64,000 nucleotides of DNA from Odoribacter splanchnicus DSM 20712 (GTDB taxonomy: Bacteria; Bacteroidota; Bacteroidia; Bacteroidales; Marinifilaceae). The notes under the pieces were generated by a model. That model searched no databases and had not been told where the DNA came from. It worked only from the letters and a program-made list of their open reading frames with translations. Within the stretch, counting starts at the first letter, position 1; the number at the start of each line of letters is the position of its first letter. The position numbers were made by a program, and so were the translations under genes. Shown here one piece after another: positions 5,391 through 36,310 of the stretch. The stretch is taken from the NCBI RefSeq assembly GCF_000190535.1, contig NC_015160.1:3100001-3164000 (forward strand), given 5' to 3'.

Positions 5391-5755
5391 CAGAAAACGC
5401 TGATAAAATGACCACAGCCGAAATCGCCAGGAAGATAAACAGGACAGAAGTAGCTGTACAGCAATATATGCACAGGAAACGGATCAACCCGTATGAAAAG
5501 GTTGTTCGTAACCTGGTGCGTGAGATTTTAACAAAGAAATTTACAAATCCGGAATATTTCAACCCGAACCGGTCATTTTATGATTCGGTGGGTATCACAC
5601 AGAAGAGGTGGTGGGATCTCTATTACGGACGTAAACCCATTTCAGACAATGAATATAAAAAGCTATCATCACATTTCGGAATAGAACTGGATGATATAAT
5701 CGTGAACGAACAATTAAATCTATTCGATAATGCAGATTCCTCCGGAGATAATTGA
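5339..5755 (+). CDS. HTH protein with SANT/Myb-like N-terminus
   Basis: A 138-residue probable DNA-binding protein. Residues 8-50 (WTTAEENFVTENADKM, then TAEIARKINRTEVAVQQYMHR) have the three-helix SANT/Myb-like pattern common in phage regulators. Residues about 85-125 look like a second, XRE-like helical unit (SVGITQKRWWDLYYGRKPIS, then EYKKLSSHFGI). The 3' end overlaps the primase-helicase start by 26 bases, implying co-expression. Likely roles are early regulation or origin recognition beside the primase. Confidence 0.7.
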   Translation: MFYTNRKHWTTAEENFVTENADKMTTAEIARKINRTEVAVQQYMHRKRINPYEKVVRNLVREILTKKFTNPEYFNPNRSFYDSVGITQKRWWDLYYGRKPISDNEYKKLSSHFGIELDDIIVNEQLNLFDNADSSGDN

Positions 5756-8700
5756 TAAGATCCGCCAGGCTGCCGATATCGTCGATATTATCGGCAGTTA
5801 TATAACTTTGAAAAAGAAAGGTGCAAATTACTGGGGACCTTGCCCTTTTCATTCCGAAAAAACAGCCTCTTTTAGTGTCAGTCCGGCAAAGCAAATTTTT
5901 AAATGTTTCGGTTGCGGAGAAGGTGGTAATGTATTTACTTTCCTGCAAAAATATGATGGTCTTAGTTTTCCGGAAGCCGTCCGGCAGCTCGGAAAAAAAT
6001 ATAATATCGAAATTCCTGAAAATGAACTGACACCGGAAGAACTTGAAAAAATCCACCGCAGGGAATCTCTTCAGGTTGTGCTACGTGCAGCAACTCATTT
6101 TTTCCGACAACATCAGACTGACAAAACCGCTGAAAAATATCTTATCTCCAGAGGTTTTACCCCCGGAGATAAGATCCTGGAACAATATCACATTGGCTAT
6201 GCTCCTGCCAGCAATAAGCTTCGGGATGAATTGCAACGGCAGGGGTACGACCTGCAATTACTTCAGGATAATTCCCTGATAAAAGACGGGAAAAACGGAC
6301 CTGAAGATAAATTTCAGGACCGGATAATGTTCCCGATTTTTAATCTCACCGGAAATCCGATCGGATTTCAGAGCCGACGCATCAATGACGCTTTGACCAA
6401 AATACCGAAGTACTGCAACTCTGACAATAATGAACTGTTTTGCAAAGGTTCGATTATATTCGGCCTTTACCAAGCCAGAGGAGCTATCTCCCGAGAAGAT
6501 AAAGTGTACTGGGTAGAAGGACAATTCGATGTACTGACATTTGTAAAGGCTGAAATTCCGAATACAGTTTGTGGCTCCGGCACAGCCATGACCGAAGAAC
6601 AGATCCGGACACTGCTGCGTTTTACACGCAATATTACGTTGATCTATGACGGTGACAATGCCGGACAGGAAGCTGCACAGAAAAATATTACTGCCTTAAT
6701 CGAACAGGGCGCAATTGTCCGGTGTGTGAAATTACCTACTGGTGAAGATCCGGATAGTTTTGCCCGGAAAATGAATCCGGCTGACTTGAAAAAATACCTG
6801 AAAAAGCAGGAAAAAGATTTCGCCAGTTTTCTGGCCGAATTAAACGAGCCTCATTTTCACGATCCGGAATTAAAAGAAAAATGCCTGGAGGAAATATGTA
6901 GGCTGATCGCATTTCTCCGGAAAGAATCCCTTCAGGCTTCATATATTAAAAACATCGTAAAAATATTCGATCTGGATGAAGCAATTATCTGGAGTAAAAT
7001 CCGTGAAACGGTCAAATCTCTTCCGGCAGAAGCTTATATTAAAGATGGTTTCTACGGAATCGATGAATCCTTAGAAATGCTTCAGGACAACCCCGGTAAC
7101 TGTATCCTGACCGGAAATTTTGAACTTTTCTCAAAACACTACGGGAATGATCCGGTCGTATATTTTTCAGGACAGGTCCCGACCGATCAGATACAGAATT
7201 TTCAACGTTTCATTGACAATGTTGAGTTTCAGGATAATTATGCCCTGAACTTTGACGATAAAAAAGAATCGAAATCTTTACTGTTATTGAAAGCCCTGTT
7301 TCGAGCAGGCGTTGCTGTCACTGTTCTCTCTCCGGAATCCGGTGCTGTCGGGTTTGCACAATATTATGTGAAAATGTACGGCAGCGTAATGGACAGTGCA
7401 AATGAGACACAACGGGCTGTTTATGTTGATCGGTGTGCTGAGCTGATATCATGCGCCGGAGAAACTGTCCGTACAGTTATGGCGAATTCATGGGCTTCCA
7501 GTCTTGGATTGAAAATCGCACAATATAAAGACATCCTGAAACCTTATCTGGAAAAACGCCGGAGTAAATCCGCTATAAACACCCAGCGGATTGATGTCGA
7601 TGATTTCCTCATTGCTTACGATCCGGAAAAAATCCCGGAATACGTTGAGGAAAACGAGGAATACAAAAGAATTTACCGTCGTTACGGCTTTTTTCCACTC
7701 CTGAACAAAAAAAGCGAACCGGTATGTTATATGTTCCGCAACGAGAAAGGGGGACATATCCAGGTTTCTGATTTCTACATGACTCCCCTTTTACATATTT
7801 ACGATCAGGATTCTGAGTTCAACAAACGGGTTATAAAAATTACCCGGCTATATTCTCAACAGCCTCTCTATATCGAGGTGAAAAGTAAAAGCCTTGCTAA
7901 ACTTAGCAGCTTCGAAGAGATCCTTCTGAATGAGGAAGCCTTGAATTTTGAAAATGGTAACGATACATATTTCAAAAAGATCCGCCAGGCTATGAGCTAC
8001 AATTATACCAAATGTACTGAGTTAAAAGTATTCGGGCAACAATCAGAAGGTTTCTTTGCCTTTGCCAATGCTATATTCCACAAAGTCGAAAAAGAATTCC
8101 GGATCGATTACGCCGACGATCTCGGAGTCATGACGCACGATGATGAAAACTATTATAGTCCTGCATACAGCAAAATATACTCCGGTCTCCGGAAAGATTC
8201 CGACAAATATGAACAACACCGGTATTTCATTTTTAAAGACATCCCGGTAGAAAAACAATGTTCCTTCCAGGAGTGGGCCAGTCTGATGGACGAAGTATAT
8301 AAGATCAATCACAATGGCAAATGGGCCGTCATTTACGCAATTATGTGTACCTTCCGGTCAGATATCCACGCCATTGACCGATTATTTACCTCCTTGTTTT
8401 TCGTCGGACCAACCATGTCCGGGAAAACCCAGATCGCTATTTCCATCCGCTCCCTTTTCGTAGATCCCAAAGCTCCGTCCTTCAATTTAAACTCTGGTAC
8501 CGATGCCGCCTTTTTCACTCTGATGGAAGGTTTCCGGGACATTCCTCAGGTCCTTGAAGAATACAACAATAAGAGCATTACAGATGCAAAATTTCAGGGC
8601 CTGAAGGCTATCACTTACGACGGAGACGGGAAACAGAAACGGAAAAGGATAAACGACCGGGATCTGGATACCAGTAAAGTGAACAGCCCCGTCATTATTC

Positions 8701-9647
8701 TGGGTCAGGAAACCCCGGAACGGGACGACAACGCCCTGATGAATCGCGTAGTACTATGTGAAGTCCCCAAACGGACAGAAGAATATACTGCCCGGGAGAC
8801 TGAAGTATTTCAACGATTGAAAGATTCCGAAAAGACCGGACTTTGCAATGTTCTGTTTGAGATTTTGAAGCTACGTCCGATTGTACAGGACCACTTTAAA
8901 CATCTTGAGCGAACCACAAACAAGGAACTGACCGACGCCGTTCTTTCTGGAGGGGATGCTTCAGGCGACATGGTCCGGATTATAAAAACAGTCTCCCTGT
9001 TCCTGACAATGTGCCGTCTTTTAGAAACATATGCTCCGCATCTTCAATTACCCTTTACATATCAGGAATTTTTTAACCTGGCTAAAGACAAGGTTAAATG
9101 GCAAATAGAACTAATCAGTCACTCTGACAAACTAGCCGGATTCTTTAAGGCTATTGAGGTGATGATAAATACCGGGACTATAAAAGAAGGACGCGACTAC
9201 GATATCTCCCAACCAGGAAAATTGACATTAAAAGCTTCAGGTGGAGAATCGGCTCAGGTCAATCTAAAAGCCGACGAAAAAATCCTGTTCATCCGCTTGG
9301 CCAATTTATTTACCTATTACGCAAAATCGTCCTACAATACAGAAAGTGCAACACAATCGACTATCGAACAGAACTTACGGTCAAATCCGGCCTATATCGG
9401 TGTTGTCAGCAGCCGGAAATTCCGATGGAAAGAGGTCGAAGAAGTGCCGAAATCTGAAGTAAGCGGCAATATGGAAATGATCCGGATCATGAGAGACAGG
9501 ATACAAACAACTTCCTGTATTGCCCTAAACTACGATATATTCCGGAAGTATTTCGATATCGATCTGGAACGAAGTGCACCTCCTGAACAACCCGAAACAA
9601 CTGAACTGAAAGAAAGACAGCTTTGTGAAGACAAAGTACTATTCTAA
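5730..9647 (+). CDS. Primase-helicase: CHC2 zinc finger, Toprim and NTPase domains
   Basis: A 1305-residue replication protein. The N-terminus is DnaG-like: a CHC2 zinc finger with C38, H41, C59 and C62, then the primase core, then Toprim with the catalytic glutamate in WVEGQFD (E263) and the DGDNAG acidic motif at 307-312. The C-terminal half has a P-loop GPTMSGKT (893-900) and a likely Walker B/sensor region (SPVIILGQETPERDDN near 985-1000), typical of phage and plasmid helicases rather than DnaB. It would make primers and unwind DNA at the phage fork. The gene is followed by a strong terminator and then the iteron region, so initiator functions and origin are adjacent. A replicative polymerase is not encoded in the window, so host polymerase III is presumably recruited. 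Confidence 0.9.
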   Translation: MQIPPEIIDKIRQAADIVDIIGSYITLKKKGANYWGPCPFHSEKTASFSVSPAKQIFKCFGCGEGGNVFTFLQKYDGLSFPEAVRQLGKKYNIEIPENELTPEELEKIHRRESLQVVLRAATHFFRQHQTDKTAEKYLISRGFTPGDKILEQYHIGYAPASNKLRDELQRQGYDLQLLQDNSLIKDGKNGPEDKFQDRIMFPIFNLTGNPIGFQSRRINDALTKIPKYCNSDNNELFCKGSIIFGLYQARGAISREDKVYWVEGQFDVLTFVKAEIPNTVCGSGTAMTEEQIRTLLRFTRNITLIYDGDNAGQEAAQKNITALIEQGAIVRCVKLPTGEDPDSFARKMNPADLKKYLKKQEKDFASFLAELNEPHFHDPELKEKCLEEICRLIAFLRKESLQASYIKNIVKIFDLDEAIIWSKIRETVKSLPAEAYIKDGFYGIDESLEMLQDNPGNCILTGNFELFSKHYGNDPVVYFSGQVPTDQIQNFQRFIDNVEFQDNYALNFDDKKESKSLLLLKALFRAGVAVTVLSPESGAVGFAQYYVKMYGSVMDSANETQRAVYVDRCAELISCAGETVRTVMANSWASSLGLKIAQYKDILKPYLEKRRSKSAINTQRIDVDDFLIAYDPEKIPEYVEENEEYKRIYRRYGFFPLLNKKSEPVCYMFRNEKGGHIQVSDFYMTPLLHIYDQDSEFNKRVIKITRLYSQQPLYIEVKSKSLAKLSSFEEILLNEEALNFENGNDTYFKKIRQAMSYNYTKCTELKVFGQQSEGFFAFANAIFHKVEKEFRIDYADDLGVMTHDDENYYSPAYSKIYSGLRKDSDKYEQHRYFIFKDIPVEKQCSFQEWASLMDEVYKINHNGKWAVIYAIMCTFRSDIHAIDRLFTSLFFVGPTMSGKTQIAISIRSLFVDPKAPSFNLNSGTDAAFFTLMEGFRDIPQVLEEYNNKSITDAKFQGLKAITYDGDGKQKRKRINDRDLDTSKVNSPVIILGQETPERDDNALMNRVVLCEVPKRTEEYTARETEVFQRLKDSEKTGLCNVLFEILKLRPIVQDHFKHLERTTNKELTDAVLSGGDASGDMVRIIKTVSLFLTMCRLLETYAPHLQLPFTYQEFFNLAKDKVKWQIELISHSDKLAGFFKAIEVMINTGTIKEGRDYDISQPGKLTLKASGGESAQVNLKADEKILFIRLANLFTYYAKSSYNTESATQSTIEQNLRSNPAYIGVVSSRKFRWKEVEEVPKSEVSGNMEMIRIMRDRIQTTSCIALNYDIFRKYFDIDLERSAPPEQPETTELKERQLCEDKVLF

Positions 9648-11290: not shown

Positions 11291-12364
11291 ATGGCGACTA
11301 CAGAATTCGACATTGATTCCTATATCGGGGAATGGGGCTACTCAAATCGTTACATTAAATCTTACCTGAATGCTGCCGGAAAAAATCCGGTTATTTGTCA
11401 TGTTTGCAGTGGTGGTGGCGACTTCCTGATGGCAATCAACATCAAAGATCAGTTTGCAGCTCACGGAAGTGTAACTGTAGATATTTCAGGGTACGCAGCC
11501 AGTGCTGCTACTTTAATAGGCTTGGGTGCAAAACATACCCGTATCAGCAATTCATCTTTCTACCTTATACATAAAGTCATGTCCTGGGTGAATGCCTGGG
11601 GAGGCATGAATGAAGATCAGATATCCGATCTGATTACTCACCTGGAAAAAGTTAAAGATGAAAATGAGAAAATGACTCTGGTAGCTGCAAAAGCATATGC
11701 AGACAGATCCGGAAAGCCGGTTCTGGAAATTCTGAACCTGATGAAAGAAGAAAAATGGCTAACAGCCGATGAAGCAAAAGAATGGGGCTTCGTTGACGAA
11801 GTGTATAACACTACAACCACAAAAATCAATCTGGCAAAAGTCTCTGAAAAATTCAACATGATGGGACTTCCCAAACTTCCGGATTTTTCCGCAACTGACG
11901 ATGACTCACTCGTTGGTAAAGTTGTTTCCGGAATCCGCGAATTCTTCAGCAAAGAAAATACTCCGATTTTTCCACAATCCAAAATAGATCAAATACCAAT
12001 GAAACAATTCACCCTACTCAACACGATTCTGGCTGTTACATCCCTGGAAAGCCAGGACGGGAAAGGCGCGTATCTGAATGAGGCACAACTTCAAGCCTTC
12101 GAAGATGCCATTTCCGGAAAGGACCACCGGATCACCGAACTCACTCAGCATGAAACAAACTACAACAATGCAGTCGATAAACTGAACGCCCTGCATCCGG
12201 ATGTTGCTTCAGCAAAAAACCTGGCAGAAAAAGTAAATGTTTTATCCCGGAAACTGGCAGAAAAACCAGGTGTTCCGGCTTCCGGACAGTCTGAAAATCC
12301 TCTGAATCAAAACGACGGGGTTGACTGGGATAAAATGATGTCTCTCAAACACATGAAAGATTAA
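11291..12364 (+). CDS. ClpP-like (S14) prohead maturation protease
   Basis: A 357-residue protein. The first 190 residues have the ClpP/crotonase-like serine protease fold: nucleophile S71 in GYAASAA and the catalytic histidine H94 in SFYLIHK. The C-terminal part (about 210-357) is charged, helical and coiled-coil-like, resembling a scaffold domain fused to the protease, as in many HK97-type phages. It would cleave scaffold and capsid delta domains during prohead maturation. It lies directly before the probable capsid gene, as expected, and behind a late promoter-like element. Confidence 0.85.
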   Translation: MATTEFDIDSYIGEWGYSNRYIKSYLNAAGKNPVICHVCSGGGDFLMAINIKDQFAAHGSVTVDISGYAASAATLIGLGAKHTRISNSSFYLIHKVMSWVNAWGGMNEDQISDLITHLEKVKDENEKMTLVAAKAYADRSGKPVLEILNLMKEEKWLTADEAKEWGFVDEVYNTTTTKINLAKVSEKFNMMGLPKLPDFSATDDDSLVGKVVSGIREFFSKENTPIFPQSKIDQIPMKQFTLLNTILAVTSLESQDGKGAYLNEAQLQAFEDAISGKDHRITELTQHETNYNNAVDKLNALHPDVASAKNLAEKVNVLSRKLAEKPGVPASGQSENPLNQNDGVDWDKMMSLKHMKD

Positions 12365-17311: not shown

Positions 17312-17342
17312 TTTGCCACCTCAAAAATTTTACCTATCATTG
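17312..17342 (+). promoter_or_regulatory. Promoter of leader RNA A
   Basis: TTTG (17312-17315), 19 bases, then TATCATTG (17335-17342). The same layout with the same -7 box precedes leader RNA B. Transcription would begin at about 17349, so the RNA would start at or within the variable 5' strand. Confidence 0.65.
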
Positions 17343-17345
17343 CAA

Positions 17346-17550
17346 TGTTCAAACATTATCACGTAGGGTGGAGATAGACCGCCCTCGAATCCGAGTCGCG
17401 GATTTTTTATGTCTATCACTCAACACATGATAAACGCATGCGGCGTGTACCCCCGTCCTATGGTTATAATGATCATAGGGACCCTACGTGAGAGTTTGAA
17501 CACCGGGAAAGGCACGCCGTTTTCTGTGCCTAAAAGTTCAAAATCACGTA
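17346..17550 (+). ncRNA. Structured leader RNA A (candidate switch)
   Basis: TGTTCAAAC (17346-17354) pairs perfectly with GTTTGAACA (17494-17502), and CACGTAGGGT (17360-17369) with ACCCTACGTG (17481-17490). A second copy of the 5' strand, GTTCAAAATCACGTA (17536-17550), lies two bases before the start codon and can pair with the same central strand instead. Other conserved elements are GATAGAC (17373-17379) with GTCTATC (17411-17417), an AATCCG/CGGATT hairpin plus T run (17388-17408), and CGGCGTG (17441-17447) with CACGCCG (17513-17519). In copy B the variable stems differ but remain paired. It reads as a two-state leader controlling the gene at 17553; the ligand or trigger is unknown. Confidence 0.8.
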
Positions 17551-17552
17551 TT

Positions 17553-17879
17553 ATGGAAAAGAAAAACACCTCTCCCACTGTCGCGGAGCAAAAACAAGAA
17601 TTCTTGTTACCGAAATCTGCTAATGTATTTAAATCTGAACTTCTTAGAGCAGCCCGGGAGATTTTCAGTATTGCTAATAGAATCCGGATACAATCTGCAA
17701 TACTAACGGATGATGATCTGAGACCTTACACAAAAGAATTCAATGGTAGTATTCAGGAATTCACTGATGAAATGAACGTTTGTGCATCCTGTTTGATGTC
17801 TGCCTATACCAGTCTTGAAAAACTGAATGTACGTAATACTTCTGTATTTCTTTTGGAAAAGGAGGAAAGCCATGTGTAA
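17553..17879 (+). CDS. Small cassette protein behind leader RNA A
   Basis: A 108-residue protein. The first 15 residues (MEKKNTSPTVAEQKQ) are identical, in DNA as well, to those of the gene at 32020; the rest is unrelated. The body is helical and contains no recognised domain. In-frame codons extend upstream through the leader RNA, but the ATG at 17553, just behind the conserved RNA and matching the paralogue start, is the best choice. The stop overlaps the next start by eight bases, so the two genes are translationally coupled. Role unknown; likely expressed from its own promoter in the lysogen. Confidence 0.7.
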   Translation: MEKKNTSPTVAEQKQEFLLPKSANVFKSELLRAAREIFSIANRIRIQSAILTDDDLRPYTKEFNGSIQEFTDEMNVCASCLMSAYTSLEKLNVRNTSVFLLEKEESHV

Positions 17880-18135
17880 AAAAGAACTTACAGAACAGGC
17901 CATACAGGCCCTTAACGATCTGATGTGTGAATTCATAAAGCGTTATGCTCCGGCAAAGTCCTGGGAGCAGGCCGACGAACATTTCACATCGTCCGAAATC
18001 GCTGAAATGTTCAATTCCGTTTATCCGATACCTCTGGAAAATATTTTCGAGGCGTTGAAATCAAACGGCTTTACATGCGTACCTTTATCCGGACAGCCGA
18101 CTTTCGTCTGGCTGCTCACCCTTAAACAGAAATAA
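17872..18135 (+). CDS. Small hypothetical cassette protein
   Basis: An 87-residue, mostly helical protein starting at ATG 17872, overlapping the previous gene by eight bases. The middle (SSEIAEMFNSVYPIPLENIF, then EALKSNGFTCVPL) looks like a winged-helix or HTH-like unit, but weakly. It ends five bases before a strong terminator that closes the cassette. Function unknown. Confidence 0.6.
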   Translation: MCKKELTEQAIQALNDLMCEFIKRYAPAKSWEQADEHFTSSEIAEMFNSVYPIPLENIFEALKSNGFTCVPLSGQPTFVWLLTLKQK

Positions 18136-18140
18136 ACTTC

Positions 18141-18165
18141 GCCCCGGTTCACGCCGGGGCTTTTC
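18141..18165 (+). terminator. Terminator closing cassette 1
   Basis: GCCCCGG (18141-18147), loop TTCACG and CCGGGGC (18154-18160) are followed by TTTTCTTT. The next late promoter-like element begins inside the T-rich tail. Confidence 0.9.
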
Positions 18166-18216: not shown

Positions 18217-18789
18217 ATGAAAGCACTCGAAAATCAGGACTACGAAACCATCAAATCCTACATCCTGGAAGGAAATGAATCTACCCTTCCGCTCCGGCAA
18301 CGTGAAATGCTCAACCGCTGGGTCTCTGCCTCCAAACTTCTGGAAAAAAATCCGGTAACAAAAAATGCAGTTGCCATCCTTCAGGCAAAGTATCCCGGCC
18401 TGAGCCGGACACAGGCTTATGAAGATTGCCGGAACGCCGTCCGTATGTTCAACAGCCGCCAAACTTTCGATTATGAACTCTGGCGCAACTGGTTACTAAA
18501 CAATATTATCGAACTCTGCCAGAAAGCAAAGGACACCGGTAATCTGAAAGCCTGGGCAGCAGCTCAGGCAAATCTGATAAAAGCCCTGGGCGAAGCTCCC
18601 GAGAATAACATCGATCCGCGTCTGTTGGAAAAACATCAGATCGTTATCCCGATCCAGGTCAACAACAATACCTACAACCTCGACCTGAACAAATTCCTGA
18701 ACATACCCATCGATCAGCGCACACGCATTGCAGACGCTCTGATCAATCCGGCTACCGACGATGACATCACCGAAATCATGAACTCATGA
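18217..18789 (+). CDS. terS: Probable terminase small subunit
   Basis: A 190-residue helical protein directly upstream of the large terminase subunit and overlapping it by four bases (ATGA). The N-terminal half contains a putative DNA-binding helical region (SRTQAYEDCRNAVRMFNSR near 63-81), and the C-terminal part (135-190) is an oligomerisation-like tail. It would recognise phage DNA and load the large subunit. The call rests on position, size and fold pattern rather than a specific motif. Confidence 0.75.
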   Translation: MKALENQDYETIKSYILEGNESTLPLRQREMLNRWVSASKLLEKNPVTKNAVAILQAKYPGLSRTQAYEDCRNAVRMFNSRQTFDYELWRNWLLNNIIELCQKAKDTGNLKAWAAAQANLIKALGEAPENNIDPRLLEKHQIVIPIQVNNNTYNLDLNKFLNIPIDQRTRIADALINPATDDDITEIMNS

Positions 18790-20504
18790 TAGAGCAAAAA
18801 ATACAATTCAACCCGGCACAACAAATCGGCCTACTCCTTCAGGCCAAAAACAAAGCCGATATCTGGGGGCGAGGCACCGGGAAATCAGCCGGAATAGCCT
18901 GGGACATCAACCTGATTAACCGGACCATGCCCCGGGCTTTAACTGCCGTAACCGGACAGACTTTCGGACAGCTGCTCACACGTACACTCCCATCCACTTT
19001 TAAACTACTTGAAAGTATGGGCTATAAAATGCACGTCTCAGCCAAAGATCCCGGCAACTACGTCATCAACCGCCGACCGCCGGATCATTTCCTGCAACCC
19101 TACGAAAAAGTAATGAAGTTCGACAATTTTATTAGCTTTTCGAATGGTAACGGCTTATTGCTTCTTTCTCAGGACCGCGCCGGATCAGCGCGTGGAGCAT
19201 CCGTCGATTACGAGATTCTGGACGAAGCACTGACAATAAATAAACAACGTTACGACGAAGAAACATCACCGACCAACCGGGGAAATGAAGGTATTTTCGG
19301 ACCACACAGTCCGCAACCGATCCCCTGGCACCATGGTTTCCACTATTCCAGTTCCATGCCGTACACCGCCGAACAAAAATGGCTGCTTGATATCGGCAAC
19401 TACTATGAAAAAGAACGCGGAATCCGACTTTTCGAAATCTGGAACCGGATAATAAAATTACAGTTGGAGCTGCTCGACTGCGAATCAGAATCCGAATTCA
19501 AAAGTATCTGGAACGAAACGGTTCGTCTGAAAAAGAGTATTGCACCTTTTGTCAGCAAAGACGGCACACTGTTCACGCTGGCCAATGCTTTCGATAATAT
19601 CCAAAACGTAGGCTTTTCCTATATCAGACGGGAATATAAAAAACAAACGCTGCTGACCTTCCTGATTGAGATCATGAACATGGTGATCGATAAAGTAGAA
19701 GATTGCTACTATCCACTCTCCGACCGCCATATCTATTATAATGCTACGAACGACGCTTTTATCCGGGACGTAGCAGAAGATTCAAATTTCGACTGGAACC
19801 GGCTTTCCGAAAAAGATTGCCGCTATGATTCGGATTGTGACACACACAAACCTCTGGAACTTTCATTCGACTGGGGTGCCCGGATCAGCCTGATGACCGT
19901 CAGCCAACCCCGGAATTACGATTTTGTCACCGGCCTTTTTTCTGAGATAGAATTGCAGAATTTTATAAATGAATTTTTCGTCAAACCCGATCAGGCACCC
20001 ACAACAATGATAAATGCCCTGATCGACTCATTTTGTCGTTACTACGAACATCATCAGGAACGTACCATCATTTACATCCGCGACCGATATGGAGATCACC
20101 GACAGGCAAACAGTTCACAAAGCTACAACGAACAGGCTATCGAACGGCTGAAATCAAACGGTTGGTACGTTATTCCTCACGTTCATCAAGGGATGGAGCC
20201 ACCCCAACACGATAAATTCCTGCTCATCCAAAATATTTTCAAGGAAGCAGATCCGCGTTTCCCCGGTATCCGGTTTAACGGCGTCCGGTGTAAATTCTCC
20301 ATTATCAGTATGAATAATACCCGCGTAACCGAACACGATGGCCGTTTCGGGAAGGACAAAAAAAGCGAAAGCAGCCGGAGCGGAGTACTTCCCGAGGAAG
20401 CAACCCACTTCGGCGACGCTATCGACAAAATTATCTGGACAAAATTCAACAGTGCATTACGCTTCAATAACAACACTTTTGTCCCCGTTCGAATAAAAAA
20501 TTGA
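18786..20504 (+). CDS. terL: Terminase large subunit (packaging ATPase-nuclease)
   Basis: A 572-residue packaging motor. The N-terminal ATPase has Walker A GRGTGKS (28-34) and Walker B YEILDEA with D146/E147. The C-terminal RNase H-like nuclease starts around LSFDWGARISL with D362 as first metal ligand, and later acidic positions lie in YIRDRYGDH (about 434-442) and FGDAIDK near the end. It cuts concatemeric DNA and pumps it into the prohead. Length and domain order are normal. It is separated from protease and capsid genes by two accessory cassettes, which is unusual. Confidence 0.92.
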   Translation: MIEQKIQFNPAQQIGLLLQAKNKADIWGRGTGKSAGIAWDINLINRTMPRALTAVTGQTFGQLLTRTLPSTFKLLESMGYKMHVSAKDPGNYVINRRPPDHFLQPYEKVMKFDNFISFSNGNGLLLLSQDRAGSARGASVDYEILDEALTINKQRYDEETSPTNRGNEGIFGPHSPQPIPWHHGFHYSSSMPYTAEQKWLLDIGNYYEKERGIRLFEIWNRIIKLQLELLDCESESEFKSIWNETVRLKKSIAPFVSKDGTLFTLANAFDNIQNVGFSYIRREYKKQTLLTFLIEIMNMVIDKVEDCYYPLSDRHIYYNATNDAFIRDVAEDSNFDWNRLSEKDCRYDSDCDTHKPLELSFDWGARISLMTVSQPRNYDFVTGLFSEIELQNFINEFFVKPDQAPTTMINALIDSFCRYYEHHQERTIIYIRDRYGDHRQANSSQSYNEQAIERLKSNGWYVIPHVHQGMEPPQHDKFLLIQNIFKEADPRFPGIRFNGVRCKFSIISMNNTRVTEHDGRFGKDKKSESSRSGVLPEEATHFGDAIDKIIWTKFNSALRFNNNTFVPVRIKN

Positions 20505-31779: not shown

Positions 31780-31810
31780 TTTGCCACCTCAAAAATTTTC
31801 CTTATCATTG
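31780..31810 (+). promoter_or_regulatory. Promoter of leader RNA B
   Basis: TTTG (31780-31783), 19 bases, then TATCATTG (31803-31810): identical elements and spacing to the promoter of leader RNA A. Transcription would begin near 31817. Confidence 0.65.
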
Positions 31811-31813
31811 CAA

Positions 31814-32017
31814 TGCAAAAACAAACTCAGTAGGGTGGAGATAGACCGCCCTTAAATCCATAGGCGGATTTTTTATGTCTATCACTCAACACATGATAAA
31901 CGCATGCGGCGTGTACCCCCGTCCTTAGCTGTAATGGCGAAAGGAAACCCTACTGAGAGTTTTTGCAACGGGACAGGCACGCCGTTTTCTGTGCTTAAAA
32001 ATGCAAAAAACTCAGTA
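31814..32017 (+). ncRNA. Structured leader RNA B (candidate switch)
   Basis: TGCAAAAAC (31814-31822) pairs perfectly with GTTTTTGCA (31959-31967), and CTCAGTAGGGT (31826-31836) with ACCCTACTGAG (31947-31957). TGCAAAAAACTCAGTA (32002-32017), two bases before the start codon, repeats the 5' strand and can pair with the same central strand. GATAGAC/GTCTATC, the CGGCGTG/CACGCCG pair and a terminator-like hairpin with T run (AAATCC/GGATTT, 31854-31874) are retained. Compared with copy A, the outer stem changes at three adjacent base pairs with both sides compensated, and the third strand follows. Confidence 0.8.
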
Positions 32018-32019
32018 TT

Positions 32020-32274
32020 ATGGAAAAGAAAAACACCTCTCCCACTGTCGCGGAGCAAAAACAAATCTTAGAGACTTGTGTACACAAACTTGAAGAAGTC
32101 AATGCCTGTATTCTGGCAATGTATCCCACGTTATCAACCAATCTGCCTTTATCAGATTATACGAATGAAGAACTGATTGCCCATGAACTTTGCGAGGATA
32201 TTTTTTCAGATTTTATCCGGTTTGGACATATTCTGATCGAAGTTGTCAGAAAGGAGGTAGTTTATGAAAACTAA
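32020..32274 (+). CDS. Small cassette protein behind leader RNA B
   Basis: An 84-residue protein whose first 15 residues and their DNA are identical to the gene at 17553; the rest differs. The body is helical and acidic (EELIAHELCEDIFSDFIRFG). Expression is probably governed by the leader RNA. The 3' end overlaps the next gene by 11 bases. Function unknown. Confidence 0.7.
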   Translation: MEKKNTSPTVAEQKQILETCVHKLEEVNACILAMYPTLSTNLPLSDYTNEELIAHELCEDIFSDFIRFGHILIEVVRKEVVYEN

Positions 32275-32669: not shown

Positions 32670-32696
32670 AGCCCGGCAATCCGCCGGGCTATTTTT
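32670..32696 (+). terminator. Terminator closing cassette 3
   Basis: AGCCCGGC (32670-32677), loop AATCC and GCCGGGCT (32683-32690) are followed by ATTTTT, which merges into the next late promoter-like element. Confidence 0.9.
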
Positions 32697-32749: not shown

Positions 32750-35700
32750 ATGGCATCTAAAAGCACAATTAACAAACGTGTAAACATTTACATCAACGGC
32801 CGGGAAGTCAGCAATGACATAAAATCCATCCGGACTGAAATGCAAAAGGCAGTCAATGATATTGCCCGTATGAAACGCGGCAGCGATGAATACAACGCGA
32901 AAGCCAAAGAAATCCGCACCCTTAAAGCCATTATCCAGGAACACAACCAGCAACTCCGGACAACGGAGCAACGGTGGTCTTCTCTAAATAACGTTGCCAA
33001 TGGCTTAAAGAAATATTCCGGTATTATTCTTTCTTTTGTTGGTTCGCTCACCGGAGCAACATTAGGTTTTCAAAAGTGTGCCGAAGAAGCTGAAAAATTT
33101 GAGGAAAATTTGGACAACCTTTCTGCCCTGACCGGACTGGGAGGGAAAAATCTTTCCTGGTTAGGCGATCAGGCAAAAGAGATGTCTGTAAAAACAACAG
33201 AGTCCGGAATAAAAATCAAACAATCGGCAACTGATATTCTGGACGCCTTCACAAAAATAGGATCACAACGGCCGGAACTGCTCAAAAACAAAGAAGCTTT
33301 GGCTGCCGTAACGGAAGACGCTATTATTCTCAGCGAAGCTGCAAAGATAGAGCTGGAACCGGCAACAGCATCCCTAGCTAATGTCATGAATCAGTTCAAT
33401 GAAAAATCTTCCTCCAGTCGCAGGATCATCAACGAACTAGCCGCGGGGTCTCAGACCGGTTCGGGAGATATCCAGTATCTTTCCAATGCAATAGAAAAAT
33501 GCGGTACCTCTGCCTACCTCATGGGTATGAAAACCAATCAGACAATCGGTGTAGTCGAAGCTATTGCCCCGAAATTCAAAGATGCATCTCAGGCCGGTAA
33601 CAGCTTTGACAAGGTATTGCTAACAATGAAAGATAAACAAATCGGTTATCAGTCCGGCCTGTTTAACATGAACGATGCATTGGATGAACTTCAAACCAGA
33701 TTTGCTAAAGGGGAAAAAGCATCCGACCTTTTTGGAAAAGAACACGCGAAAATGGCTGAAGTTCTCGTTATGGCTAAAGATGATGTAATACGCTATACTG
33801 AGGCTGTTACCGGAACGGACAAGGCGTTGGAACAAGCAGCAAAAAATACGAACAACAGGGCAGCCAAACGCGCTCAGGCCATGAATCGTCTTAAACTGGT
33901 GATGATTGATCTCGGAGAAAAAGTAGCTCCGGCAATCACCATGGGAACCAATGCGTTCACTTCTTTCCTCACTTATCTTTCAAAAGCCCCGACGCTCTTC
34001 CGGGAAAACAAACAGCTTATTCTTGCTCTGGCTACTGCTTTTGTTGTCCTTCAGGGAAAAACTATTCTTGCTACGCTAGCTTCCATGAAAAACCGTGCAG
34101 CACATCTGCTCGAAGCTGCTGCAAAAATGAAGAATGCAACGGCAACAGCCTACTTAAATACCTATGCAGAACAATACAGGATGACTCAAGGAAACGTTTC
34201 CCGGGGAGTGTTGAAATTGCGGACTTCATTTTCCTTACTTTGGAAAACAATTGTTGCTAATCCAGTCGGAGCAATAGTTACAGGAATATATGCTTTGATC
34301 ACTGCCGTGAATTTCATGGAAAAACATACCGATAGTGCCATGAGAGCCGAAAAACTCAAAAATAGTATCCTTTCCAAATCCGAAACAGCAACTAAACTAG
34401 CTACCGATGCAAATAGAGAATTTGCCAAATCAATCAGCAATGTTAATCGCCTCAGTACAGAAGAACGTCAACGTCTTCGGGAACAAATCAGCGATCGTAT
34501 AAAATTGACAGAGGCCACATTAAACCAACTGAAAGCCGAACAAGCCGAATTAAAGCAGACTGCAACTAAAGTCGGATTCTGGCAAACACTAAAAAACAGC
34601 TTTCTCTCCGGTGGATTTGGTGAACCTTCCGTCAATAATTATGAGAATTTCCAAAAATTACAGCAAAATGATGCCTTAAAAAACGGTCAGGAAGCAGCTG
34701 ATGAAATGAATGAAAGTATCCAGAAACTCGAAGAAAGTAACGCGTCACTTAAATCTCAATTAGATGATTTTAATGAAACATTTAATGCTGAAATAAACGC
34801 TGATAAGATTGGTACTAAAACTATTACAGAACTTCAGGAAAAAGTAAATCTGTATCGTACCGCTTTGGAAAATGCGACCTTACAAAGTGAAGAATATGAA
34901 CGGATTCAAAATAAACTAATCGCAACTGAAAAACAACTGAATCAGGCAATCAAATCAAGGGACATAAACGATACTCCCCTACCATCAAAAGACAATAAAA
35001 ATCCACTTCAAAACAAAAAACTAGAAGCCGAACAAAAGCTTGCCACTGCAATCTCTCAAATACGGAAAAAACTTTATCTGGAAAACCTTACAGAATCAGA
35101 AAAAGAAATTTTGCAAACTCAACAACAATACAATGAACTAATTGCTCTCTGCCAACAATTCGGGATTGATACAATAGAAGTGTATAATGCATACTCAGAA
35201 AAGATAGAAGCCATTATTGACAGAGAACTGGAAAATGAAGTTAGTGCATCCATTGCAGCACAAGACCGAATTAATCAGGCTTTAATGTCTTCCTCGGAAC
35301 GGGAAAAAGCTAGTGTCAGGCAAAAATATGCGGAATTAATCGCACTTGCTGAACAATATGGAATTGATACTTTGGCTTTAAAAGAAAAAATGGATGAAGA
35401 ATTAGCCTCCATAAAAGAAGACGAAGAACCACAAGATATATTCGGAATGTCACCCGAAGACTGGGAGGATCTGGAGGGGAAAATAGGAAAGGCGATTCAA
35501 TTGGCCGGTCAATTAGCTGATATCTGGGGACAATTTAATCAGATTCAGGCCGATAAAGAAAAAAAAGAACTACAAGAATATGAAAGGAGTTGTAACCGAA
35601 AAAAAGAACTACTCAATAAACAGCTCAACGCCGGGAAAATAAGCCAGGAACAATATAACGCCCGTACCTCCCAACTGGATGCTGATTTAGAAAAAAAGAA

Positions 35701-36310
35701 AACTGAGATAGCTAAAAAACAGGCAAAACGTGACAAAGCGCAATCAATTTTTTCGGCTATAATTAGCACTGCTGCTGCAATAGCCCAAGCCCTTCCGAAT
35801 ATTCCATTATCTATTATTGCCGGTATTATGGGGGCTGCACAAATAGCAGTCATTGCCAGTCAGCCACTTCCCGAATATGCAAAAGGTGGTCTAACCGATG
35901 GCGCAAAAATGTACATTGCCGGAGAAGCCGGACAGGAATGGATTTCTCCCAACTGGATGCTGAAAGACAAAACAACCGGACCAATTATTCAACAATTGGA
36001 AATGGTCCGCTCCGGTATCTTATCTCCGGAACAACTGGCTCCGATCAGACCGGATTTTCAAACTATGTCTGCTATTCCAATGTATGCTTCAGGTGGATTT
36101 ACATCTACCGGTTCGATGGAAACAAACTATTACACCACAACAACCACTACAAATCAAGATAATGACACATTGATGAATATCAATGAAAATATTAAAATCC
36201 TTATTGAATATCTTTCCGATCCACGTAATCGACAAGCAGTTATTTCCAACGATCTATTGCAAAAACACAACGAAGAAATAAACATGATAAATCGTTTAAA
36301 AAGGTTGTAA
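32750..36310 (+). CDS. Tape measure protein
   Basis: A 1186-residue, largely helical protein. It has several hydrophobic segments (about 86-106, 424-446, 502-520 and 1005-1040), long coiled-coil regions (about 535-980), and an N-terminal coiled coil. This is the typical make-up of a siphophage tape measure that sets tail length and is ejected during infection. It is the longest tail gene, alone in its own late unit behind late promoter-like element 4. Length predicts a tail of roughly 170-180 nm by the usual 0.15 nm per residue rule, which is only an estimate. Confidence 0.85.
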   Translation: MASKSTINKRVNIYINGREVSNDIKSIRTEMQKAVNDIARMKRGSDEYNAKAKEIRTLKAIIQEHNQQLRTTEQRWSSLNNVANGLKKYSGIILSFVGSLTGATLGFQKCAEEAEKFEENLDNLSALTGLGGKNLSWLGDQAKEMSVKTTESGIKIKQSATDILDAFTKIGSQRPELLKNKEALAAVTEDAIILSEAAKIELEPATASLANVMNQFNEKSSSSRRIINELAAGSQTGSGDIQYLSNAIEKCGTSAYLMGMKTNQTIGVVEAIAPKFKDASQAGNSFDKVLLTMKDKQIGYQSGLFNMNDALDELQTRFAKGEKASDLFGKEHAKMAEVLVMAKDDVIRYTEAVTGTDKALEQAAKNTNNRAAKRAQAMNRLKLVMIDLGEKVAPAITMGTNAFTSFLTYLSKAPTLFRENKQLILALATAFVVLQGKTILATLASMKNRAAHLLEAAAKMKNATATAYLNTYAEQYRMTQGNVSRGVLKLRTSFSLLWKTIVANPVGAIVTGIYALITAVNFMEKHTDSAMRAEKLKNSILSKSETATKLATDANREFAKSISNVNRLSTEERQRLREQISDRIKLTEATLNQLKAEQAELKQTATKVGFWQTLKNSFLSGGFGEPSVNNYENFQKLQQNDALKNGQEAADEMNESIQKLEESNASLKSQLDDFNETFNAEINADKIGTKTITELQEKVNLYRTALENATLQSEEYERIQNKLIATEKQLNQAIKSRDINDTPLPSKDNKNPLQNKKLEAEQKLATAISQIRKKLYLENLTESEKEILQTQQQYNELIALCQQFGIDTIEVYNAYSEKIEAIIDRELENEVSASIAAQDRINQALMSSSEREKASVRQKYAELIALAEQYGIDTLALKEKMDEELASIKEDEEPQDIFGMSPEDWEDLEGKIGKAIQLAGQLADIWGQFNQIQADKEKKELQEYERSCNRKKELLNKQLNAGKISQEQYNARTSQLDADLEKKKTEIAKKQAKRDKAQSIFSAIISTAAAIAQALPNIPLSIIAGIMGAAQIAVIASQPLPEYAKGGLTDGAKMYIAGEAGQEWISPNWMLKDKTTGPIIQQLEMVRSGILSPEQLAPIRPDFQTMSAIPMYASGGFTSTGSMETNYYTTTTTTNQDNDTLMNINENIKILIEYLSDPRNRQAVISNDLLQKHNEEINMINRLKRL

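Follow-up and report, generated by a model that had tools for sequence, protein, structure and literature searches.

Antisense RNAs of phage immunity regions and the layout of leader A

The c4 RNA represses ant and underlies the heteroimmunity of phages P1 and P7 (PMC12197685). The CI RNA of P4 is described as ending transcription by pairing with two sites, seqA on its upstream side and seqC on its downstream side, and IsrK of Gifsy-1 is reported to be a short terminated RNA that activates translation of its own read-through transcript (PMC4825925). In E. coli, symE is controlled by the antisense RNA SymR (PMC1891008, partial text). Weinberg et al. (2010) reported C4 from Proteobacteria and phages, and c4-a1b1 from gamma-Proteobacteria and phages (PMC2864571, in the excerpt available). 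No description of a C4-like or antisense immunity RNA in Bacteroidota was found in the titles and abstract openings of the open-access literature. Searching P4 with Rfam places C4 at 8420-8507 and isrK at 8615-8692. P4 also uses a Rho-dependent site.

The window, that is the whole stretch of 64,000 nucleotides of Odoribacter splanchnicus DSM 20712 that was analysed, contains a prophage ending at an integrase gene that adjoins tRNA-Pro. Two differently tagged copies of one leader element, A and B, head two cassettes of this prophage (Table 1). In leader A a central strand, C, is complementary to an upstream target strand, S5, and to a downstream target strand, S3. The original prediction had described a single strand able to pair with either of two partners but not with both, the 3′ partner being at the start codon; the pairing computation confirmed this, and the coordinates of the strands proved correct. 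Pairing of S5 with C, which had been given as 9 + 10 bp, holds but computes as 9 + 11 bp (-30.9 kcal/mol), and its score is reached by 0/400 shuffles. C:S3 computes as 7 + 7 bp (-16.0 kcal/mol). The leader also starts at a promoter, as had been claimed: it is of the Bacteroidota type, and its box, TATCATTG, has one mismatch to TAnnTTTG and lies 3 nt 5′ of S5. The C domain of A comprises an outer helix (GGCGTG/CACGCC + CCCGT/CGGG), hairpin H and strand C, followed by a T run and GGCAC..GTGCC. Helix 1 of the outer helix around C crosses the S5:C pairing, with which it forms a pseudoknot; the full leader is therefore a pseudoknot.

Table 1. Features of the two cassettes and of the surrounding prophage, in window coordinates.
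Feature	Position	Strand	Remarks
Primase gene	5730-9647		Prophage
Leader A as a whole	17312-17552	+	Heads cassette A
Promoter of leader A	17312-17342	+	TTTG 17312-17315, TATCATTG 17335-17342
S5 of A, upstream target strand, predicted RNA 5′ end	17346-17369	+	Counterpart of P1 a1b1 / P4 seqA
Antiterminator hairpin of A (predicted), AGGGTGG / CCGCCCT	17365-17385	+	5′ arm overlaps end of S5
Intrinsic terminator 1 of A (predicted)	Hairpin 17379-17401, T run 17403-17408	+	Folding
Antisense-RNA domain (C domain) of A	17442-17531	+	Models R1, R2
Hairpin H, loop TATAATG	17457-17479	+	Within C domain of A
C of A, central strand	17481-17502	+	Complementary to S5 and S3
T run directly 3′ of outer helix	17520-17525	+	Candidate terminator freeing a discrete C RNA (prediction)
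S3 of A, downstream target strand	17536-17550	+	2 nt 5′ of ATG; counterpart of P1 a2b2 / P4 seqC
First gene of cassette A	17553-17879	+	108 aa; homologues include Odoribacter splanchnicus
Second small gene of cassette A	17872-18135	+	87 aa from chosen start; ORF list 17827-18135
Terminator-like hairpin ending cassette A	18141-18164	+	Pattern scan
Leader B as a whole	31780-32019	+	Heads cassette B
Promoter of leader B	31780-31810	+	TTTG 31780-31783, TATCATTG 31803-31810
S5 of B	31814-31836	+	-29.4 kcal/mol with C of B
Antiterminator / terminator of B (predicted)	31832-31852 / 31846-31867, T run 31869-31874	+	Folding
Antisense-RNA domain of B	31908-31996	+	Model R1, 90.4 bits
C of B	31947-31967	+	Inside antisense-RNA domain of B
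S3 of B	32002-32017	+	2 nt 5′ of ATG at 32020; -16.4 kcal/mol with C of B
First gene of cassette B	32020-32274	+	84 aa; first 15 codons as in A gene, then different
Terminator-like hairpin + T run ending cassette B	32671-32696	+	By eye
Tape-measure gene	32750-36310		Prophage

The element shares the C4 layout: it is encoded within the leader of the operon that it would target, it has target sites, recognised by complementarity only, on both sides, and, like C4, it has its downstream site where translation of the first gene begins. The P1 record gives the order a1, b1, C4 RNA, a2, b2, icd, ant, which is the order seen in the Bacteroidota leaders. P1/P7 C4 (RF01695; a1b1 RF03163) and the element share, in this order, a promoter, an upstream target, a terminator-like hairpin, an antisense RNA with an outer helix that closes it, and a downstream target ahead of the first gene. 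However, the element has one hairpin and a continuous antisense strand where C4 has two hairpins, and it carries a T run past the outer helix, unlike C4. Its S5 is at the RNA 5′ end, whereas a1 of P1 lies ~30 nt past the -10 box. Moreover, C4 heads an antirepressor operon, whereas most Bacteroidota first genes are not recognisable antirepressors. P4 CI resembles the element as one antisense RNA that has sites on both sides in the same transcript; it controls transcription termination, which for the element is predicted by folding on average, with exceptions. P4 controls replication genes (PMC4825925), whereas S3 lies on the start codons of varied genes. IsrK (RF01394) resembles it in combining a short terminated RNA with a read-through mRNA from one promoter, but is reported in that excerpt as an activator, unlike the repression proposed here (PMC4825925). 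SymR is encoded opposite symE, whereas the element has its antisense RNA within the leader and on the strand of the gene.

The Rfam C4 model (RF01695, threshold 45 bits) matched neither the window nor 24 loci at relaxed thresholds; the positive controls P1 and P4 scored 68.8 and 74.9 bits. Model R2 had no match in P1 48000-58500 or in P4 (E up to 10). The window matched Rfam at the gathering threshold in tRNA-Pro only, and at relaxed thresholds (E up to 5 for 4 loci, up to 1 for 20) the 24 loci gave only weak, unrelated matches. Neither isrK (RF01394) nor any Rfam riboswitch class matched the window or the 24 loci, and the view that this RNA belongs to no described family therefore stands as far as these searches reach. 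We read the element as working like C4 and CI; by the sequence model it is not a C4 member, and common descent is not implied.

Covariation and concerted change of the three strands

A covariance model of the C domain alone, with S5 and S3 kept out, was built from seven copies. The first model matched 14/393 genomes of the order and 4/395 of the phylum, and the second matched 3/395 genomes of the class and 5/8 of the genus (E up to 0.1); these counts take in the source genome, and searches of more than 40 genomes were run under strict filters. Pattern searches with hairpin H alone added 31 viral contigs (27 + 4), whose hosts are not stated. The final collection comprises 62 non-identical elements from Bacteroidota genomes and viral contigs. 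The first set retained 33 of 36 matches (L034 repeats L029). A later search gave 37 matches, of which 3 were already in the set and two (L045, L064), cut at the locus end, were left out. Together with the 32 new elements and L069 and L070 this made 67, from which five identical ones (L051, L056, L057, L063, L068) were removed; the truncated L005 and the later finds L075-L078 and L088 are outside the 62. One element (L008) is from Pinibacter, which we take to be a member of the Chitinophagaceae, and three (L014, L016, L018) are from other orders or classes of the phylum. A pattern scan of genome contigs had returned five stretches: L008 and L012 were retained, L011 is the same contig as L006, and L009 and L010 were rejected by eye as chance matches. 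Leader A had no DNA match in the phage and plasmid record collections. Apparently, these elements form a large, uncatalogued RNA family of Bacteroidota prophages.

The outer helix and hairpin H around C covary strongly. In the C-domain alignment of 33 distinct sequences, which was fitted to the model and so leans towards it, standard pairs fill 97.8% of the pair cells. Covariation scores 0.719, compared with 0.206 for shuffled alignments, of which 0/500 reach 0.719, and at most 0.107 when partners are slid. A covariance model with a check for covarying pairs had been suggested in the original prediction; the model recovered relatives, and 15/19 pairs change on both sides (shuffled mean 11.7; 15 reached by 2/500 shuffles). 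Helix 1 varies on both sides at 6/6 pairs (GGCGTG/CACGCC, GGTTTC/GAAACC, AACGTG/CACGTT and others) and hairpin H at 8/8; helix 2 (CCCGT/ACGGG) shows hardly any variation. A T run past the outer helix, at least 5 T in the first 9 nt, is present in 32/33 distinct sequences. This suggests that a discrete C RNA could be released, C4 being a discrete RNA of ~77 nt that acts in trans.

Independent variation of the three strands had been named beforehand as a refutation of the proposed pairing. Instead, the strands change together across the 62 homologues. C scores a mean of 26.8 against its own upstream region and 12.0 (sd 2.5) against those of other elements, and its own S5 is strictly best over all 61 others in 51/62 elements (24/29 among those found after the first set). 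Three of the 11 failures lack S5; for each of the other 8, just one other element attains the own score, and in 7 cases the C of that element is identical or near-identical. Against S3 the means are 18.2 for own and 11.8 (sd 2.3) for crossed comparisons, and the own S3 is strictly best in 23/62. A threshold of 14 was loose (12.7 expected by crossing) and 18 was therefore used. A score of at least 18 is reached by 40/62 elements, with 1.4 expected by crossing, and it is this family-wide excess that makes S3 firm for leader A, where it is, taken alone, only modestly beyond chance (score reached by 7/400 shuffles). Ten of the 62 elements score below 14 and are without S3. Given these ten, and that the own S3 is strictly best in so few, translation control is not universal.

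Both target strands are held in register. S5 is present in 59/62 elements; L029, L036 and L037 have none and are omitted from all counts out of 59. In 58/59 elements (3.25 expected from shuffles) S5 follows, at a distance of 2-4 nt, the end of a TAnnTTTG box that has no more than one mismatch, and in 32/59 (0.15 expected) the box is exact. This places the beginning of S5 at or near the RNA 5′ end. A TTTG 14-26 nt further 5′ of the box is found in only 32/59. As for S3, 38/40 strong sites overlap an ATG or lie within 10 nt of one; by comparison, the best match of another element's C overlaps or adjoins (10 nt or less) an ATG in 118/372 cases. At the loose threshold of 14, S3 begins inside the ATG in 22 elements, and B, L004, L008, L024 and L065 are among those that also have an ATG just after S3. 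The start codon is inside S3 in L023 (Rha), L014, L018, L032 (SymE) and L025 (Bro-N), so that S3 there encodes the first residues.

The predicted attenuator and the mode of control

Absent from the original prediction were the outer helix with its pseudoknot, three further copies in the genome, and a terminator and antiterminator predicted between S5 and C. With S5 free, the 5′ arm of the terminator is predicted to be paired upstream with a probability of 0.93 in A and 1.00 in B. Thermodynamic prediction gives terminator 1 of A a probability of 0.00 with S5 free and 0.99 with S5 blocked, and the terminator of B 0.00 and 0.97. When S5 is free, A, B, L004 and L007 still fold a different short hairpin that lies ahead of the T run or reaches into it; in A it spans 17388-17404 and takes up the first T, and the pattern scan flags it at 17387-17405. 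The size of the effect is therefore uncertain, and read-through in A is not assured.

A run of at least 5 T lies between S5 and the C domain in 54/59 elements (shuffles average 18.2), 25-39 nt past S5 in 51 of those 54, and 53 have a hairpin before the T run. For these 53 a hairpin-specific measure was used together with an upstream-shuffled control, which is the fairer yardstick since blocking any competitor raises the terminator somewhat. With S5 free the terminator had a mean probability of 0.37; blocking S5 brought this to 0.89, and shuffling the upstream part to 0.71. Antiterminator pairing was 0.37 in native against 0.13 in shuffled sequences. The native terminator was below its shuffled value in 40/53 elements and the native antiterminator above its own in 37/53. 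Blocking S5 raised the terminator in 44/53 and lowered it in L004 and L019; in 15/53 its probability was at least 0.7 even with S5 free. Applied to P1, the same folding test gave the terminator 0.39 when a1b1 was free and 0.99 when it was blocked. There, in the immI leader (L074, 256-315), a predicted antiterminator overlaps b1 and competes with an intrinsic terminator before C4. We also considered whether the family in general has a second antiterminator that pairs across the T run after the C domain, but this was not supported (own mean 8.1 vs 7.1 crossed, sd 2.0; a score of 10 reached by 16/62 vs 12% of crossed pairs). A-like members do carry a second antiterminator.

Each leader is probably a C4/CI-type antisense-RNA control unit, with C acting mainly in trans, on transcription through S5 and on translation through S3. 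Structure, covariation, the concert of the strands, their registers and the gene types enter this reading as computed, and terminator competition enters as a folding prediction. Transcription would start at S5 and polymerase would then meet the attenuator, where the unbound S5 end would help to build the antiterminator and polymerase would tend to read on, first through the C domain and next through the mRNA. Either termination at the T run of the C domain or processing would free this domain, which would accumulate and act in trans. On S5 of a new transcript it would dissolve the antiterminator and transcription would end; on S3 of read-through transcripts it would cover the start codon and block translation. 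We infer release of C, trans action, repression as the outcome and the biological role: where C RNA is present, as in a lysogen or with a resident cassette, the gene would be off, and arrival of the element in a naive cell, or titration of C, would turn it on. In A and B, C is complementary over ~20 bp to S5 of its own molecule and could thus be trapped in cis, which counts against this mechanism.

An opposite sign of control is unlikely, though it has a precedent. Here the short S5-terminator RNA would act in trans and activate by drawing C off S3 of the full-length mRNA, as IsrK does in the available account of activation by a short RNA (PMC4825925). Rfam isrK matches P4 upstream of CI, and terminator 1 would, by the folding prediction, yield such a short RNA here. 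However, activation of this kind leaves the overlap of S5 with the antiterminator unexplained, and the nameable genes are antirepressors or SymE toxins, for which repression would be the expected default.

The original prediction took the leader for a self-contained two-state translation switch. Such a purely cis switch might be driven by a ligand or protein. S5:C is indeed far stronger than C:S3, so that S5 could keep S3 free within one molecule, and the conserved loops could bind a factor. Yet C is made only after polymerase has passed terminator 1, which renders the coupling of S5 to the terminator useless in cis and sensible only if C from an earlier transcript acts in trans, and strands that change in concert and are specific to each element would serve no purpose in a ligand switch. 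As the main mechanism the cis switch gives way before the position of S5 upstream of a predicted terminator that S5 blocking mostly favours, and before the closest known layouts, P1 immI and P4 immunity, which are those of trans-acting antisense RNAs. We consider a purely cis switch improbable, with some cis contribution possible beside the action in trans. That the element is DNA- or RNA-guided (a bridge-RNA-like recombination guide, a small ribozyme or intron, or transposon target duplications), with S5 and S3 as targets and C as guide, would fit direct repeats flanking a structured domain that holds their complement, but is extremely improbable given the fixed distance of the promoter box from S5 (58/59), the register of S3 with the start codons of unrelated genes and the absence, from the loci searched, of any Rfam match to a ribozyme or an intron.

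Tags, cassettes and downstream genes

In the antisense-RNA reading, S5, C and S3 would together be an address tag, and co-resident elements would accordingly differ. Copy B (31780-32064) is 87% identical to A and has the same layout but different strand sequences, the leaders differing mostly in the three strands and hairpin H. Crossed pairs are weaker than own pairs: C of A gives -18.1 kcal/mol with S5 of B and -6.5 with S3 of B, and C of B gives -16.3 and -3.2 with those of A. The second model finds five element places in the source genome, A, B and three elsewhere, and none of the five copies matches another copy's S5 at its own strength (highest crossed S5 score 18, A with B, vs own 19-32). 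Crossed S3 scores reach 16, more than the own S3 (10-11) of the three copies without S3. Two or more copies per locus, each with its own tag, are found at L029, L036 and L031 (G555, G796), and likewise in the viral contigs L044, L048 and L049. Two copies in the source genome (L019 and L020, near 1506323 and 1504719) and three in the same genus (L027, L076, L078) consist of the C domain and an upstream strand with no S3-bearing gene. At each of these five, a convergent ORF of 74-81 aa lies 7-55 nt further on and by eye resembles an XRE-type helix-turn-helix repressor.

The genes around the cassettes are mostly without a name. A Clp-protease-family gene of the prophage (11291-12364; PF00574, E 4.2e-15) is possibly a prohead protease, and the genes after cassette A may encode terminase, 18786-20504 having a sub-threshold Pfam terminase match (E 0.15) and no PDB match. 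Both cassettes consist of small genes, that of B lying directly 5′ of the tape-measure gene, and look like two morons. The terminator pattern scan found 3 sites against 1.0 expected in shuffles. The first gene of A matched nothing in Pfam or PHROG, and no relatives of the A and B genes were confirmed in viral contigs. The first 15 codons of the two first genes (17553-17597, 32020-32064) are letter-for-letter identical.

Among database proteins for the A and B genes, 29 of the 47 listed were examined for upstream extensions that translate S3. Fifteen proteins with the gene-A body carry KKFKNTRI (six), LKIAKIYV (eight) or KSSKSRI (one); with the gene-B body, two carry KKCKKLSI, three KSSKSRI and one KKFKNTRI, and one is frame-shifted. 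The same gene body therefore stands behind different tags, which suggests that leaders and gene bodies reassort, with the qualification that many contigs are short and A/B assembly chimeras possible. From 17409 to 17552, the leader of copy A has no stop in the reading frame of the gene, so gene callers can extend the protein into the leader, to a 156 aa ORF here and to 127 aa in protein P0014 of O. splanchnicus, which is of another tag type. Copy B has a stop codon in the corresponding frame.

After omission of doubtful genes (L012, L020, L027, L029 (2219), L037, L043, L062), 52 of 59 first-gene candidates were scanned. Bro-N was found in 8 (one below cut-off; KilAC in 2 of them) and Rha in 5, together 13/52, and SymE in 3/52. 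The remaining first genes, those of A and B included, had no convincing profile match. Conversely, the element was present at 3/10 SymE loci sampled from the order (149 genomes), among them a copy in the source genome ~650 nt 5′ of the SymE match, and at 1/30 Bro-N loci drawn from a longer list of such places in the order. The element is thus one option at these loci, not the rule.

P1/P4-type antisense-RNA immunity is known from phages of Proteobacteria. We tentatively propose, as a possibility to which we would not yet commit ourselves, that the leaders are a phylum-specific RNA address system, in which unrelated cassettes carry self-silencing leaders whose strands re-tag together, giving an RNA-based heteroimmunity of Bacteroidota prophages and islands. 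This same proposal would embrace cassettes of antirepressors, SymE toxins, morons among structural genes and tandem arrays, together with orphan copies lacking S3 or a gene; situated next to convergent genes for XRE-like repressors, these copies would target incoming relatives in trans only. A large counterpart of P1/P4-type immunity in Bacteroidota would mean that phages of a dominant gut phylum use or have reinvented the same logic, one RNA with two target copies, and that this logic combines attenuation with a translation block. Prophages could then be grouped by immunity specificity from sequence, some mis-annotated N-terminal extensions of small genes would be accounted for, and orthogonal RNA repressors could be had for Bacteroides genetics.

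Lastly, a truncated leader with the 5′ part only was found in the same genus (L005, 1501-1612). By eye it is followed by an apparent tRNA gene, and the site is perhaps a prophage end.
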